A DNA stretch of 40,067 nucleotides from Candidatus Methylomirabilota bacterium (GTDB lineage: Bacteria > Methylomirabilota > Methylomirabilia > Methylomirabilales > 2-02-FULL-66-22), in the NCBI GenBank assembly GCA_016180655.1, contig JACPAT010000026.1, positions 1 through 40,067 of the forward strand. Direction: 5' to 3'. Below, in pieces: positions 26,023 through 29,728 of the stretch. The translations under genes and the position numbers were made by a program. Positions within the stretch are counted from its first letter, which is position 1. Each line of letters starts with the position of its first letter. Below the pieces are notes generated by a model. That model was given only the letters and a program-made list of their open reading frames with translations, had not been told where the DNA came from and did not search any database.

Positions 26023-26301
26023 ATGGGTGACGAAGAGAAGCGCGGCATTTTCGGCTCGCTGAAGGACAAGTTCAAGGACTACATCTACGGCATGGCGGCG
26101 CACGAGATGACCCGCCAGGCCCTGAAGACCCGCGGGAGCATGGAGCACCTCTTCATCCTCATCACCATGGGCGACCTCTTGGGGGTGCCCATCCTGCCGC
26201 CGTACTACTCCCTGCGGCTGCTCCCCTACGTGGTGCCGCAGATCTCCACGTGGAAGCGGCGCATGCTCCGCGAAAAGGACCTGACCGACGCCTTGGCCTA
26301 G
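26023..26301 (+). CDS. Small membrane-associated protein A of the ArsA-pair locus
   Basis: This 92-residue protein has no named family that I know. An amphipathic, Lys/Phe-rich start (FGSLKDKFKDYIYGMAAHE) is followed by a hydrophobic block at about 42-76 (HLFILITMG, then LGVPILPPYYSLRLLPYVVP) and a charged tail, WKRRMLREKDLTD. A hydrophobic segment close to a basic C-terminus resembles tail-anchored proteins. A paralogue is encoded at 29453-29728, and about 37 of 50 aligned residues in the C-terminal part are identical by hand count. The ATG at 26023 follows TTGGAGGGA. It is first in an operon with two ArsA/Get3-like ATPases, starting 52 bp before the next gene, so it is probably a client or partner of them. 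That role is inference. Confidence 0.85.
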   Translation: MGDEEKRGIFGSLKDKFKDYIYGMAAHEMTRQALKTRGSMEHLFILITMGDLLGVPILPPYYSLRLLPYVVPQISTWKRRMLREKDLTDALA

Positions 26302-26353
26302 CGCCTGACCGGCAGCGCATCCCTCTCGATCCTTCCGACGGAAAGGACCAGGC

Positions 26354-27340
26354 ATGAACGGGGGACTCGGCCGCATCTTCAAGGAGCACCCGGACCGACG
26401 CTACATCATGTTCGGCGGCAAGGGCGGCCTGGGCAAGACGACCTTTTCGGCCGCCACGGCCTACTACCTGGCCCAGCAGGGACACCGGGTCCTGGTCTTC
26501 TCCGTGGACCCCCAGGCCTCCCTCTCGGACATCTTCCAGCGGGACATCTTCGGCAAGGGCCCCGTGGAGATCCTGCCCAACCTTTACGCGCAGGAGATCG
26601 ACGCCGACAAGCGCATCAAGGCCTACCAGGAGGAGATCCGCAAGAAGATCTTCGACATGTACGGCTTCGACAAGATCCCCGACGAGATCGAGAGCTACAT
26701 CCAGGCCGCCGCGGCCGAGCCGGCCATGGAGGAGAGCGCCATCTTCGACGAGGTGGTGGACATCGTGGTTGCCGGGAACTACGACTATTACATCTACGAT
26801 CTGGTGCCGCTGGGCCACGCCCTCTACTACCTCTCCATGGCCAGCGTCTACGACGAGTGGATCGAGCGGATCACCAAGCTCCGCGAGGACATGCGCCAGT
26901 ACGAGGAGATGGCCGCCGCCATCGGCAAGGACAAGGAGCTGGAAGAGGACATGATCCTCAAGGAGCTCCAGTACATCAAGCACCGGATCAGCACCTCCTC
27001 CGGCATCCTCACGGACCGGGAGAAGACCGCCTTCTTCTTCGTGATCATCCCCGAGGAGATGATCCTCATAGACACCCAGAAGGCGGCCCAGCTCTTCGCC
27101 AAGTTCAACGTGCCACTCAGCGGGTATGTCGTCAACCGCGTCATCCCCGAGAGCCTGGCGAGCCAGGACATCCCCGAGTACCTGCGCAACCGGCTCCAGA
27201 TGCAGAAGGGCTACCTGAAGAAGATCCAGGAGCTGTTCGGAAACGAGGTGCTGGCCCAGGTCCCGGAGTTCGAGCGCGACATCACCGGCCTTCCCATGAT
27301 CCAGAAGATGGCCGAGGCCATGTTCGGGACGGGCCGCTGA
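26354..27340 (+). CDS. ArsA/Get3-like ATPase 1 (degenerate switch II)
   Basis: This 328-residue member of the deviant-Walker (MinD/ArsA/Get3) P-loop family has GGKGGLGKTT at 21-30. Switch I, SVDPQASLSD, keeps the Asp (D52). The switch II position, DTAPTGHT in Get3, reads DLVPLGHA (149-156), so the Thr-Ala and final Thr positions are lost. AEPAMEESAIFDE (121-133) lies where Get3 has its client-groove helices. No CxxC zinc motif or arsenite-site cysteines are present, and there is no arsB or arsR nearby, so arsenite efflux is unlikely. A role in handling a hydrophobic or membrane protein is inferred. The ATG follows AAGGA. The second ATPase gene starts 33 bp downstream. Confidence 0.9.
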   Translation: MNGGLGRIFKEHPDRRYIMFGGKGGLGKTTFSAATAYYLAQQGHRVLVFSVDPQASLSDIFQRDIFGKGPVEILPNLYAQEIDADKRIKAYQEEIRKKIFDMYGFDKIPDEIESYIQAAAAEPAMEESAIFDEVVDIVVAGNYDYYIYDLVPLGHALYYLSMASVYDEWIERITKLREDMRQYEEMAAAIGKDKELEEDMILKELQYIKHRISTSSGILTDREKTAFFFVIIPEEMILIDTQKAAQLFAKFNVPLSGYVVNRVIPESLASQDIPEYLRNRLQMQKGYLKKIQELFGNEVLAQVPEFERDITGLPMIQKMAEAMFGTGR

Positions 27341-27373
27341 GGCCCCCGCACCTTCGCCCGGGAGTGTGATCCC

Positions 27374-28378
27374 ATGACTCAGCAGACAGGGCTGCATCCG
27401 CTGGTCCAGGAGAACATGCGAGGCTTCCTGGAGAAGCATCCGCACCTGAAGTACAACTTCTTCGGCGGAAAGGGCGGCGTGGGCAAGACAGTGCTAGCCG
27501 GCGCTTCGGCCCTGGCCTTCGCCCGACTGGGGAAGCGGACCCTGCTGGCCTCCACCAACCCGGTTCACAGCCTCAGCGGCCTCTTGAGCCAGAACGTCTT
27601 CGGGCAGGTGGTCCAGGTGACCGGGGTGCCGAACCTTTTTGCGTACGAGATCGATACCAAGGATACCATCGAGAAGTCCAAGCAGGAGATCAAGGAGAAG
27701 GTGAGCTGGTTCCTCAAGTTCGCCGAGATCCGGACGCAGGCGGACGCCTTCGTCGAGTCGGCCACCATGAACCCGGCCTTCGAGGAATCGGCCATGTTCG
27801 AGAACATGATTGACATCATGTTCAAGGACGAGTACGAGGTCTACGTCTTCGACACCGCCCCCACCGCCAACGCCCGCCGCCTGCTGGGCATGTCCTCGGT
27901 CTACTCTCTCTGGGTCGGCAAGATGATGAAGAGCCGGGAGGAGGCCCAGTCCCTCCGGCAGGTCCTCTCCTACAGCAAGAAGAAGGAGGAGAAGGACCCG
28001 CTCATGGACTACCTCCTCTCTTTCCAGCAGCGCATGGCCCACGCCAAGGAGCTGCTCACCGACGCCCAGAAGACGGCCTTCTTCTTCGTGACGCTCCCGG
28101 AGGCGCTGCCGATCGCGGTGATCACGCGCTTCATCGCCTGGTTCAAGGAGTTCGGGATTCCCGTGGGCGGCGTCGTGGTCAACATGCTGATCGACAAGGC
28201 CCAGGTGCGCGCCGACTCACCCGAGTTCGTGCGCAACCGCGTGGCCATGCAGGAAGCCTACATGGAAGAGATCAAGTCGGACTTCCCGGGGATGGTGCGC
28301 GCCGTCCTGCCCCTCTTCGAGACCGAAATCCGGGGCGTGGAGATGCTCAAGCGGACGGCCGATGCCCTCTATTGCTAG
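27374..28378 (+). CDS. ArsA/Get3-like ATPase 2 (switch I Asp replaced by Asn)
   Basis: This 334-residue homologue of the preceding gene has P-loop GGKGGVGKTV (31-40). Switch I reads STNPVHSLS with N62 where Get3 has the catalytic Asp (D57 in yeast Get3, whose D57N change blocks hydrolysis). Switch II, DTAPTANA (160-167), is nearer to consensus than in ATPase 1. MNPAFEESAMFEN (132-144) matches the groove-region block of ATPase 1. The pattern suggests that the two proteins form a heterodimer with one altered catalytic set each. No zinc CxxC is present. The ATG at 27374 has a weak GGGAG upstream. A strong terminator follows at 28403-28434. Confidence 0.9.
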   Translation: MTQQTGLHPLVQENMRGFLEKHPHLKYNFFGGKGGVGKTVLAGASALAFARLGKRTLLASTNPVHSLSGLLSQNVFGQVVQVTGVPNLFAYEIDTKDTIEKSKQEIKEKVSWFLKFAEIRTQADAFVESATMNPAFEESAMFENMIDIMFKDEYEVYVFDTAPTANARRLLGMSSVYSLWVGKMMKSREEAQSLRQVLSYSKKKEEKDPLMDYLLSFQQRMAHAKELLTDAQKTAFFFVTLPEALPIAVITRFIAWFKEFGIPVGGVVVNMLIDKAQVRADSPEFVRNRVAMQEAYMEEIKSDFPGMVRAVLPLFETEIRGVEMLKRTADALYC

Positions 28379-28402
28379 CCGTCAACCGCCAGCTCAGGCA
28401 CG

Positions 28403-28434
28403 ACGAGCGGCCCCGTGTGGGCCGCTCGTTTTTT
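28403..28434 (+). terminator. Intrinsic terminator of the ArsA-like operon
   Basis: A perfect 11-bp stem (acgagcggccc with gggccgctcgt) and 5-nt loop are followed by a run of six T. It begins 25 bp after the second ATPase stop codon. Confidence 0.9.
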
Positions 28435-28503
28435 CAGTGAACCGCCGAGTGGTCATGTAACGAGTTGCACCACGATGGATGAAGACCCGGGCACATTGCC
28501 CAG

Positions 28504-28561
28504 GTTCAGGCGCCCCCACCCCACCCCTCCCCCCAGCGCGGGGGAGGGGTGGGCGGGGGGG
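28504..28561. repeat. GC-rich inverted repeat with a G-run block between convergent genes
   Basis: The left arm contains cccacccctccccc and the right arm gggggaggggtggg, around a short centre, so a strong hairpin is possible in RNA from either strand. The right side, from 28540, has G-runs of 5, 4, 3 and 7 separated by single bases, a G-quadruplex-capable pattern. The element resembles the one at 9561-9630. It lies in the 240-bp gap between the convergent ATPase 2 and 222-residue-protein genes; the rest of the gap holds the terminator and a short ccaagg-type repeat. Confidence 0.65.
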
Positions 28562-28618
28562 ATTTTCGTGACAGGCGCCAGGAACGCCAAGGAAGGCTGG
28601 GTCGAGGGGCGTCAAAGA

Positions 28619-29287
28619 TCAGCGCCCGGGTCCGCGGGGCAGGACGGTCTGGGCGAGCTGTGACAGGGTGGCGAAGATCGGGAGGGGGGTTCGGGTCTCG
28701 GTCGCCGGGACCGGAAGACTGAGGATCAGGTGCGGGGCCTCGAGTTGCAGGCCGACGCGCCAGACATCCATCCCCCCGATGGCGCTCATGACCGCCCGCG
28801 CCAGCGCTCGCCCGTCGGCGTCCGGGCCGGCGCAGAGCAGGGGCGGCCGCCCGGCCAGCGGCTCCTCACGCCAGCCCTTTTCCCGGATGTCATGAGCGAC
28901 CTGGGTCGCGCCGCGCCTCCTGGGGTGGTACACCTCGAAGCTGGCGCCGACGCGGCCGTTCAGGGTCACGCCGATCACCAGCCAGTCGCGTCGTCCACCC
29001 AGCCGGCCAAAGGCCCAGAGGAAGAAGGTCTCCCGGGGCTCCAGCAGGACGCTGATGCCCAGCCGGACGAAGGGGGGCGTCAGTTGCTCCGCCTCGATCC
29101 GGAAGGCGCTCCGCCCGATCCAGCGGATGGTGGCGGTCCCGCCGAAGGGCTGGATGGAGTCGCGCACCTGCCGCACCAGCGTCACGGCCCGCCGGCGGTT
29201 GACCTGGATCCCCGCGACGTACCACATCAGCAGGAAAGCTGCGAGGCCGATGGCCAGGTCGGTGCCGGTGAGTCCGCGATCGAACAT
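28619..29287 (-). CDS. Membrane-anchored protein of unknown function
   Basis: This 222-residue protein has one N-terminal transmembrane helix (about 8-27, DLAIGLAAFLLMWYVAGIQ) and a soluble domain of mixed alpha/beta character. That domain includes ATIRWIGRSAFRIEAEQL, FVRLGISVLLEPRE and WLVIGVTLNGRVGASFEVYHP. I do not recognise the family. It lies downstream of small protein B on the same strand, separated by 165 bp of repeats including a G-quadruplex motif, and is convergent with ATPase 2. Grouping with the ArsA-like locus is plausible from position. The ATG at 29287 has AGGGGA about 10 bp upstream. Confidence 0.75.
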   Translation of the reverse strand: MFDRGLTGTDLAIGLAAFLLMWYVAGIQVNRRRAVTLVRQVRDSIQPFGGTATIRWIGRSAFRIEAEQLTPPFVRLGISVLLEPRETFFLWAFGRLGGRRDWLVIGVTLNGRVGASFEVYHPRRRGATQVAHDIREKGWREEPLAGRPPLLCAGPDADGRALARAVMSAIGGMDVWRVGLQLEAPHLILSLPVPATETRTPLPIFATLSQLAQTVLPRGPGR

Positions 29288-29309
29288 CAGCGTGGGTCCC
29301 CTATGAATT

Positions 29310-29334
29310 GGGGGTCAGGGGCCAGGGGCTGGGG
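29310..29334 (+). other. G-quadruplex-capable motif in the leader of the 222-residue protein gene
   Basis: Four runs of 4-5 G (29310-29314, 29318-29321, 29325-29328, 29331-29334) are separated by loops of 3, 3 and 2 bases. The G-rich strand is the template strand of the downstream minus-strand gene, whose start codon is 23 bp away. The wider ggggtcaggggccagg unit is also a common type of scattered repeat, so the motif may be incidental. Confidence 0.5.
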
Positions 29335-29385
29335 ATCAAGGGTCAGGGAAACGACACGAGGCAGCGCCAGGTGCCTACCGGCGTC

Positions 29386-29447
29386 AAATCCGCAATCGGA
29401 AACCCTCCGGGTGATCGAACATCCGCAATCCGAAATCCGAAATTCCG
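29386..29447. repeat. aatccgaaat-family short-unit repeat
   Basis: Tandem AT-rich units (aatccgcaatcgg; atccgcaatccgaaatccgaaattcc) lie immediately downstream of small protein B. It belongs visually to the same family as the repeats at 58-90, 14649-14717 and 30716-30787. It contains no gene. Confidence 0.55.
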
Positions 29448-29452
29448 GTGGG

Positions 29453-29728
29453 TCATCCGGCGCCCGCGAGGTCGGTGAGGTCCTTTTCCCGCAGCATCCG
29501 GCGCTTCCAGTTGCTGACGGCGGGGACGATGTACGGGAGAAGCCGGAGGGTGTAATAGGGCGGGATCACCGGGACGCCGACGATGTCGCCGAACACGATG
29601 AGCACGAAGAGATGTTCCAGATCCCCGCGCTGCTTCCGGAACATCACGACGGCATCATGCAGGGCCATGCCGAAGAGGAAGCCGCGGAACCACTCCCGCC
29701 AGCCCCCCAGCCACTCCCTGAAGCTCAT
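29453..29728 (-). CDS. Small membrane-associated protein B, paralogue of the ArsA-locus small protein
   Basis: This 91-residue protein is clearly homologous to the product of 26023-26301: LEHLFVLIVFGD, GVPVIPPYYTLRLLPY and WKRRMLREKDLTD align without gaps. The N-terminal part is more divergent and Trp/Phe-rich (WLGGWREWFRGFLFGMALHD). It has the same hydrophobic block followed by a charged tail, so a membrane or lipid-facing location near the C-terminus is likely. The ATG at 29728 follows GAGGAAGGA. It has its own promoter (29768-29796) and is not simply the end of the ABC operon. The function is unknown and probably linked to the two ArsA-like ATPases. Confidence 0.85.
   Translation of the reverse strand: MSFREWLGGWREWFRGFLFGMALHDAVVMFRKQRGDLEHLFVLIVFGDIVGVPVIPPYYTLRLLPYIVPAVSNWKRRMLREKDLTDLAGAG

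Follow-up and report, generated by a model that had tools for sequence, protein, structure and literature searches.

The window, the whole stretch of 40,067 nucleotides that was analysed, comes from an 82% complete draft genome (3.87 Mb) of a Candidatus Methylomirabilota bacterium and contains two convergent gene units between positions 26023 and 29728. The plus-strand unit encodes a small protein of 92 amino acids (CC1, 26023..26301) followed by two ATPases of the ArsA/Get3 family, ATPase A (328 amino acids, 26354..27340) and ATPase B (334 amino acids, 27374..28378), with intergenic gaps of 52 and 33 bases. The ATPase B gene is followed on the same strand by a strong terminator-like hairpin (28402..28430) with 12 pairs and a T-run after them. 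On the minus strand, the gene for a second small protein (CC2, 91 amino acids, 29453..29728) lies upstream of that for a protein of 222 amino acids (P222, 28619..29287), which has one N-terminal hydrophobic helix and an alpha/beta domain. All five open reading frames were found where an earlier note on this DNA had placed them. The promoter which that note had attributed to the convergent unit was not recovered, as a sigma-70 scan of the locus gave no sigma-70-like promoter.

ATPases A and B

Both ATPases match PF02374 (1e-72 and 6e-65) and score above the cut-off of TIGR00345, in agreement with the family proposed before. Their closest match in the PDB is the archaeal Get3 3ug6 (215 bits for A and 177 bits for B), ahead of both fungal Get3 and the arsenite pump (112 and 120 bits, respectively). 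The deviant Walker A motif (GKGGxGKT) is intact in A (GKGGLGKTT) and B (GKGGVGKTV). Switch II is unlike in the two proteins (DLVPLGH in A, DTAPTAN in B), and in switch I the aspartate kept in A (SVDPQAS) is replaced by asparagine in B (STNPVHS). After removal of duplicate query rows, the aspartate was present in 85 of 85 A-type rows, and all 82 B-type rows carried the asparagine. A and B are reciprocally monophyletic (SH-like support 0.998 and 1.0) and, as far as can be judged from their sequences, are two ancient sister clades with a fixed asymmetry. In Get3, replacement of the switch-I aspartate (D57N in yeast) blocks hydrolysis, and the asparagine of B occupies this position. B, which would represent a natural version of this trap mutation, has probably lost ATP hydrolysis.

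A contains no cysteine and B a single one, and CxxC was found in none of the A and B rows. The absence of arsenite-binding or zinc cysteines and of arsenic genes near the locus, both claimed in the earlier note, was confirmed. The arsenite pump ArsA, after which PF02374 is named, is a fused double ATPase with arsenite cysteines encoded in an ars operon, features not shared by the single-domain proteins A and B. Since the cysteines and ars genes are missing and Get3 matches better, the pump was ruled out as a model for the locus, and efflux of arsenite or another oxyanion is a hardly credible function. The helical insert of A and B has a composition similar to that of archaeal Get3 and is no more hydrophobic, so that it is uninformative on a tail-anchor groove. 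A role in anti-phage defence was likewise rejected, as a PADLOC scan gave weak P-loop matches only. Elsewhere in the same genome (contig C310, L049:6812-8371), a third single-domain ArsA-like ATPase with the switch-I aspartate is encoded adjacent to an Hsp20-like gene. Pairing of ArsA-like ATPases with Hsp20-like proteins is reported for gas-vesicle clusters.

Small proteins, gene neighborhood and CstA

CC1 and CC2 share 55% identity, which bears out their description as paralogues. Both resemble NF041419 'cory-CC-star' at scores (35 and 39.8 bits) below the curated cut-off of 80 bits, and a weak match to this family was obtained in 45 of 45 relatives tested. In the small proteins a hydrophobic stretch precedes a charged end; the stretch is short and contains invariant glycine and proline. 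The predicted structure was of low confidence and had no PDB match, and a plasmid search for the small protein gave no hit. Identity with Asterix was rejected, as PF03669 was unmatched in Pfam scans and gave no match above cut-off across 17 genomes. CC1 is more similar to Chloroflexota proteins (80–85%) than to those of most of its own class (67–70%), so that the module may have been transferred horizontally.

A species-genome collection scanned with an alignment of the small protein yielded 381 relatives, of which the best 80, mostly from Chloroflexota with some from Desulfobacterota and Acidobacteriota, were used for counting; as these are the closest matches, distant members may differ. Among these best 80, ATPase A adjoins the small protein in 79, while in the remaining one the contig stops approximately 130 bases past the small gene. 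All 68 relatives with at least 1.2 kb downstream have ATPase B, cstA is located upstream in 51 of the 57 whose upstream sequence spans 4 kb or more, and two small paralogues were found in 54 of 79. The pairing of the small-protein family with two ArsA-like neighbors, which the earlier note had named as the test of its proposal, thus holds in almost every relative.

Relatives from the same class show the gene order Trx-like, CstA, CC, CC, A, B. The present genome and that of G006, from the same genus, encode one CstA each on another contig (C315 here), beside Trx-like genes. This separation is not an assembly edge, since in G006 the CC1-A-B unit is flanked by further contig sequence on both sides. 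The Trx-like family beside CstA has no confident Pfam name and carries CxxC in 37 of 60 matched stretches. Together with one catalytic and one probably non-catalytic ATPase site, this motif could point to a sensor regulating the abundance or activity of CstA, in which A/B would read ATP and the Trx-like protein the redox state; with the Trx-like gene missing from some loci, such a sensor is distinctly improbable.

Several other arrangements were observed. Two thioredoxin-like genes lie downstream of CstA in L048:284-985. A distant, compact version of the module in G002, from the same genus, encodes CstA, the small protein, one ATPase (aspartate kept) and a P222 homologue on one strand (L141:3092-6889). 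Upstream of the module in L113:5668-7674, a penicillin-binding-protein-like open reading frame continues in frame into a thioredoxin-like domain, as the possible result of a fusion or an error in assembly. Two more small-protein copies (L040 and L041, both G057) have no ATPase neighbors within these stretches. Homologous genes, from all three families searched, were also detected in Haloferax volcanii.

Get3-like ATPases beside small proteins in which hydrophobic residues precede a charged end might also suggest general targeting of tail-anchored or small membrane proteins, in which an A/B dimer would ferry clients to the membrane, be it the small proteins by their hydrophobic segments or others. 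This is improbable given the short stretch with its invariant residues and the constant partner, which is CstA; the insert, no more hydrophobic than that of archaeal Get3, does not help to decide. Nothing was found in favor of the small proteins as tail-anchored clients, an idea of the earlier note that sits poorly with the glycine and proline and draws no support from the low-confidence model.

CstA of E. coli is proton-driven, needs a small partner, YbdD, and has no such ATPases (PMC5847655, PMC7730263). The YbdD family (PF04328) gave no match above cut-off in 17 genomes, with E. coli and other controls positive, and YbdD was dismissed as an extra partner; the cory-CC-star protein may therefore stand in for it.

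Single-domain ArsA homologues of approximately 330 amino acids were described by Castillo & Saier (2010) in operons with CstA and CstX, in two organisms as adjacent ArsA pairs (PMC2963123). CstX (approximately 90 amino acids, one TMS) adjoins ArsA, while CstY (approximately 210 amino acids, one TMS) is optional and was reported in archaea only (PMC2963123). The CstA-CstX-ArsA(-CstY) module is known from gene context alone; the trees of CstA, CstX and ArsA co-evolve, and ArsA was proposed to energise CstA (PMC2963123). A literature search for this combination gave nothing else of relevance. The system had been called undescribed in the earlier note, which cannot be upheld: the association of these genes has been in print since 2010, and both small proteins resemble 'cory-CC-star'. 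By its gene context, the locus is the detached ATPase-plus-accessory part of this module, separated from cstA in this genus. Size, topology and context indicate that CC1 is probably CstX and P222 possibly CstY.

P222 and its predicted similarity to CCDC47

Homologues of P222 were found in 37 loci, and in 32 of 79 relatives (among the best 80 of 381) within the stretches covered. In a phylum survey P222 was detected in 7 of 95 genomes. Among the 61 genomes covered by both tests, it was present in 6 of 14 with the small protein and in 0 of 47 without it (p 5e-5). P222 is a recurrent member of the module.

An AlphaFold2 model of P222 built with 28 sequences (pLDDT 87.9, pTM 0.83) was compared to the PDB using Foldseek. 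The sole matches below 0.001 were 9i78_4 (E 6.7e-7), 7tm3_4 (1.9e-6) and 6w6l_7 (4.3e-4), all of them CCDC47, with a probability of 1.00 and TM scores by query of 0.68, 0.68 and 0.47, respectively; the fourth match had an E-value of 0.07. In Pfam, PF07946 (CCDC47) was the sole family to which two or more of the 28 P222 members showed a match (best E-value 0.014), none of them above cut-off. Against the P222 profile, a segment of Chaetomium CCDC47 reached 9.6 bits; the human CCDC47 domain (fragment checked against PDB 6w6l) beat 1000 of 1000 shuffles, or 997 of 1000 when its first 20 residues were left in place. The sequence signal is weak and co-linear. An hhalign comparison of P222 with one human CCDC47 sequence was not significant, and a genome search with PF07946 gave nothing significant and five weak matches, of which only that in G057 (E 0.82) was observed within a P222 gene. 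The C-terminal latch helices and the coiled coil of CCDC47 are missing in the P222 model, and a search of 17 genomes for Asterix, the partner of CCDC47, gave nothing above cut-off. The fold match to CCDC47 predicted for P222 is likely and homology probable, short of proof, as the sequence support is slight and neither hhalign nor the genome search was significant. CCDC47 is a subunit of the PAT complex and the multipass translocon, and prokaryotes, or bacteria, are said to lack the PAT complex (PMC9630114, PMC13261788).

Proposed role and comparison with known systems

It is proposed here tentatively, with slightly more doubt than belief, that CstA is assembled, chaperoned or stabilised at the membrane by A/B, the small proteins and P222 in an ATP-driven process. 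A and B are most likely obligate partners in a heterodimer of the archaeal Get3 type, where, to judge from conserved residues, A would hydrolyse ATP and B, without the switch-I aspartate, would bind ATP and hydrolyse it poorly. CC1, CC2 and the CCDC47-like P222 would act at the membrane and couple the ATPase cycle to CstA. Such a minimal GET/PAT-like unit with one client would most likely serve to assemble, chaperone or stabilise this many-helix transporter, which is the simplest common purpose of a Get3-type pair, a CCDC47-like protein, small hydrophobic proteins and a near-constant CstA. Gene context, Get3 affinity, the Asp/Asn asymmetry, the P222 model and the co-occurrence of P222 with the small protein argue for this role. 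Counted against it are that CstA of E. coli works with YbdD and a proton gradient and without such ATPases (PMC5847655, PMC7730263), that the proposed link between P222 and CCDC47 comes from one predicted model and weak sequence evidence, that latch, coiled coil and Asterix are missing, and that P222 occurs in the above-mentioned minority of the best 80 relatives and cstA outside the locus. The membrane-protein assembly hypothesis of the earlier note survives in part: the predicted CCDC47-like fold and archaeal Get3 as closest solved relative speak for it, while the constant partner turned out to be CstA. The CstA link, the switch-I replacement in B and the predicted fold of P222 were absent from that note. 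New here are the A/B clades with their apparently fixed asymmetry, the CCDC47-like predicted fold and the affinity of both ATPases to archaeal Get3.

The main rival is that the A/B pair powers or gates CstA transport, comparable to ArsA, which energises ArsB; heterodimers with one degenerate site are common among transport ATPases. ATP binding or hydrolysis, relayed by CstX, would then drive or switch the uptake of pyruvate or peptides (Castillo & Saier 2010). The constant CstA linkage and the co-evolving trees of CstA, CstX and ArsA (PMC2963123) are consistent with such a coupling, which is nevertheless rather unlikely, as the characterised CstA is a proton-driven secondary transporter without need of an ATPase (PMC7730263), the nearest ATPase relatives are Get3 and not the arsenite pump, and the CCDC47-like protein is left unexplained. 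The locus offers a concrete test of the idea from 2010 that ArsA homologues serve CstA (PMC2963123).

Assembly of CstA might, more specifically, be the task of a dedicated bacterial unit in which a Get3-type heterodimer, catalytic at a single site, is combined with a genuine CCDC47 homologue; this is conceivable and somewhat doubtful. If true, prokaryotes would have an equivalent of the GET and PAT machineries, from which the eukaryotic PAT subunit could have arisen. A bacterial CCDC47-like protein with Get3-like ATPases and one multipass transporter would provide a small, genetically accessible system for multipass assembly and the origin of eukaryotic factors.

Archaeal Get3 (3ug6, 3zq6), the top PDB sequence match of both ATPases, consists of one repeated chain, whereas a heterodimer is expected here; the module also differs by the absence of CxxC and of the switch-I aspartate in B. 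Two different Get3-fold ATPases are found in BagA/BagB (Rv3679/Rv3680), solved in one entry (6bs3), but the NCBIfam equivalog cut-offs of 400 and 521 bits are far from the scores of A (48.4/36.5) and B (47.9/29.2). With CCDC47 (6w6l, 7tm3, 9i78), P222 shares the predicted arrangement of one membrane helix followed by a globular cytosolic domain. CCDC47 is larger (455–483 amino acids), has little sequence similarity to P222, and possesses the C-terminal latch and coiled coil as well as Asterix, none of which was found for P222. The CstA-YbdD pyruvate importer of E. coli likewise combines CstA with a small partner protein, but functions without ATPases. Most similar to the locus are the CstA-CstX-ArsA(-CstY) operons, with single-domain ATPases of about 330 amino acids, some as adjacent pairs, a small protein of about 90 amino acids with one hydrophobic segment beside ArsA, an optional single-TMS protein of about 210 amino acids to which P222 is similar in size and topology, CstA as partner, and no arsR. 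In the present genome, cstA is located off the locus on contig C315, two small paralogues are split over two units, the CstY-like gene is bacterial, and the inferred catalytic asymmetry and predicted CCDC47-like fold are features unreported in 2010.
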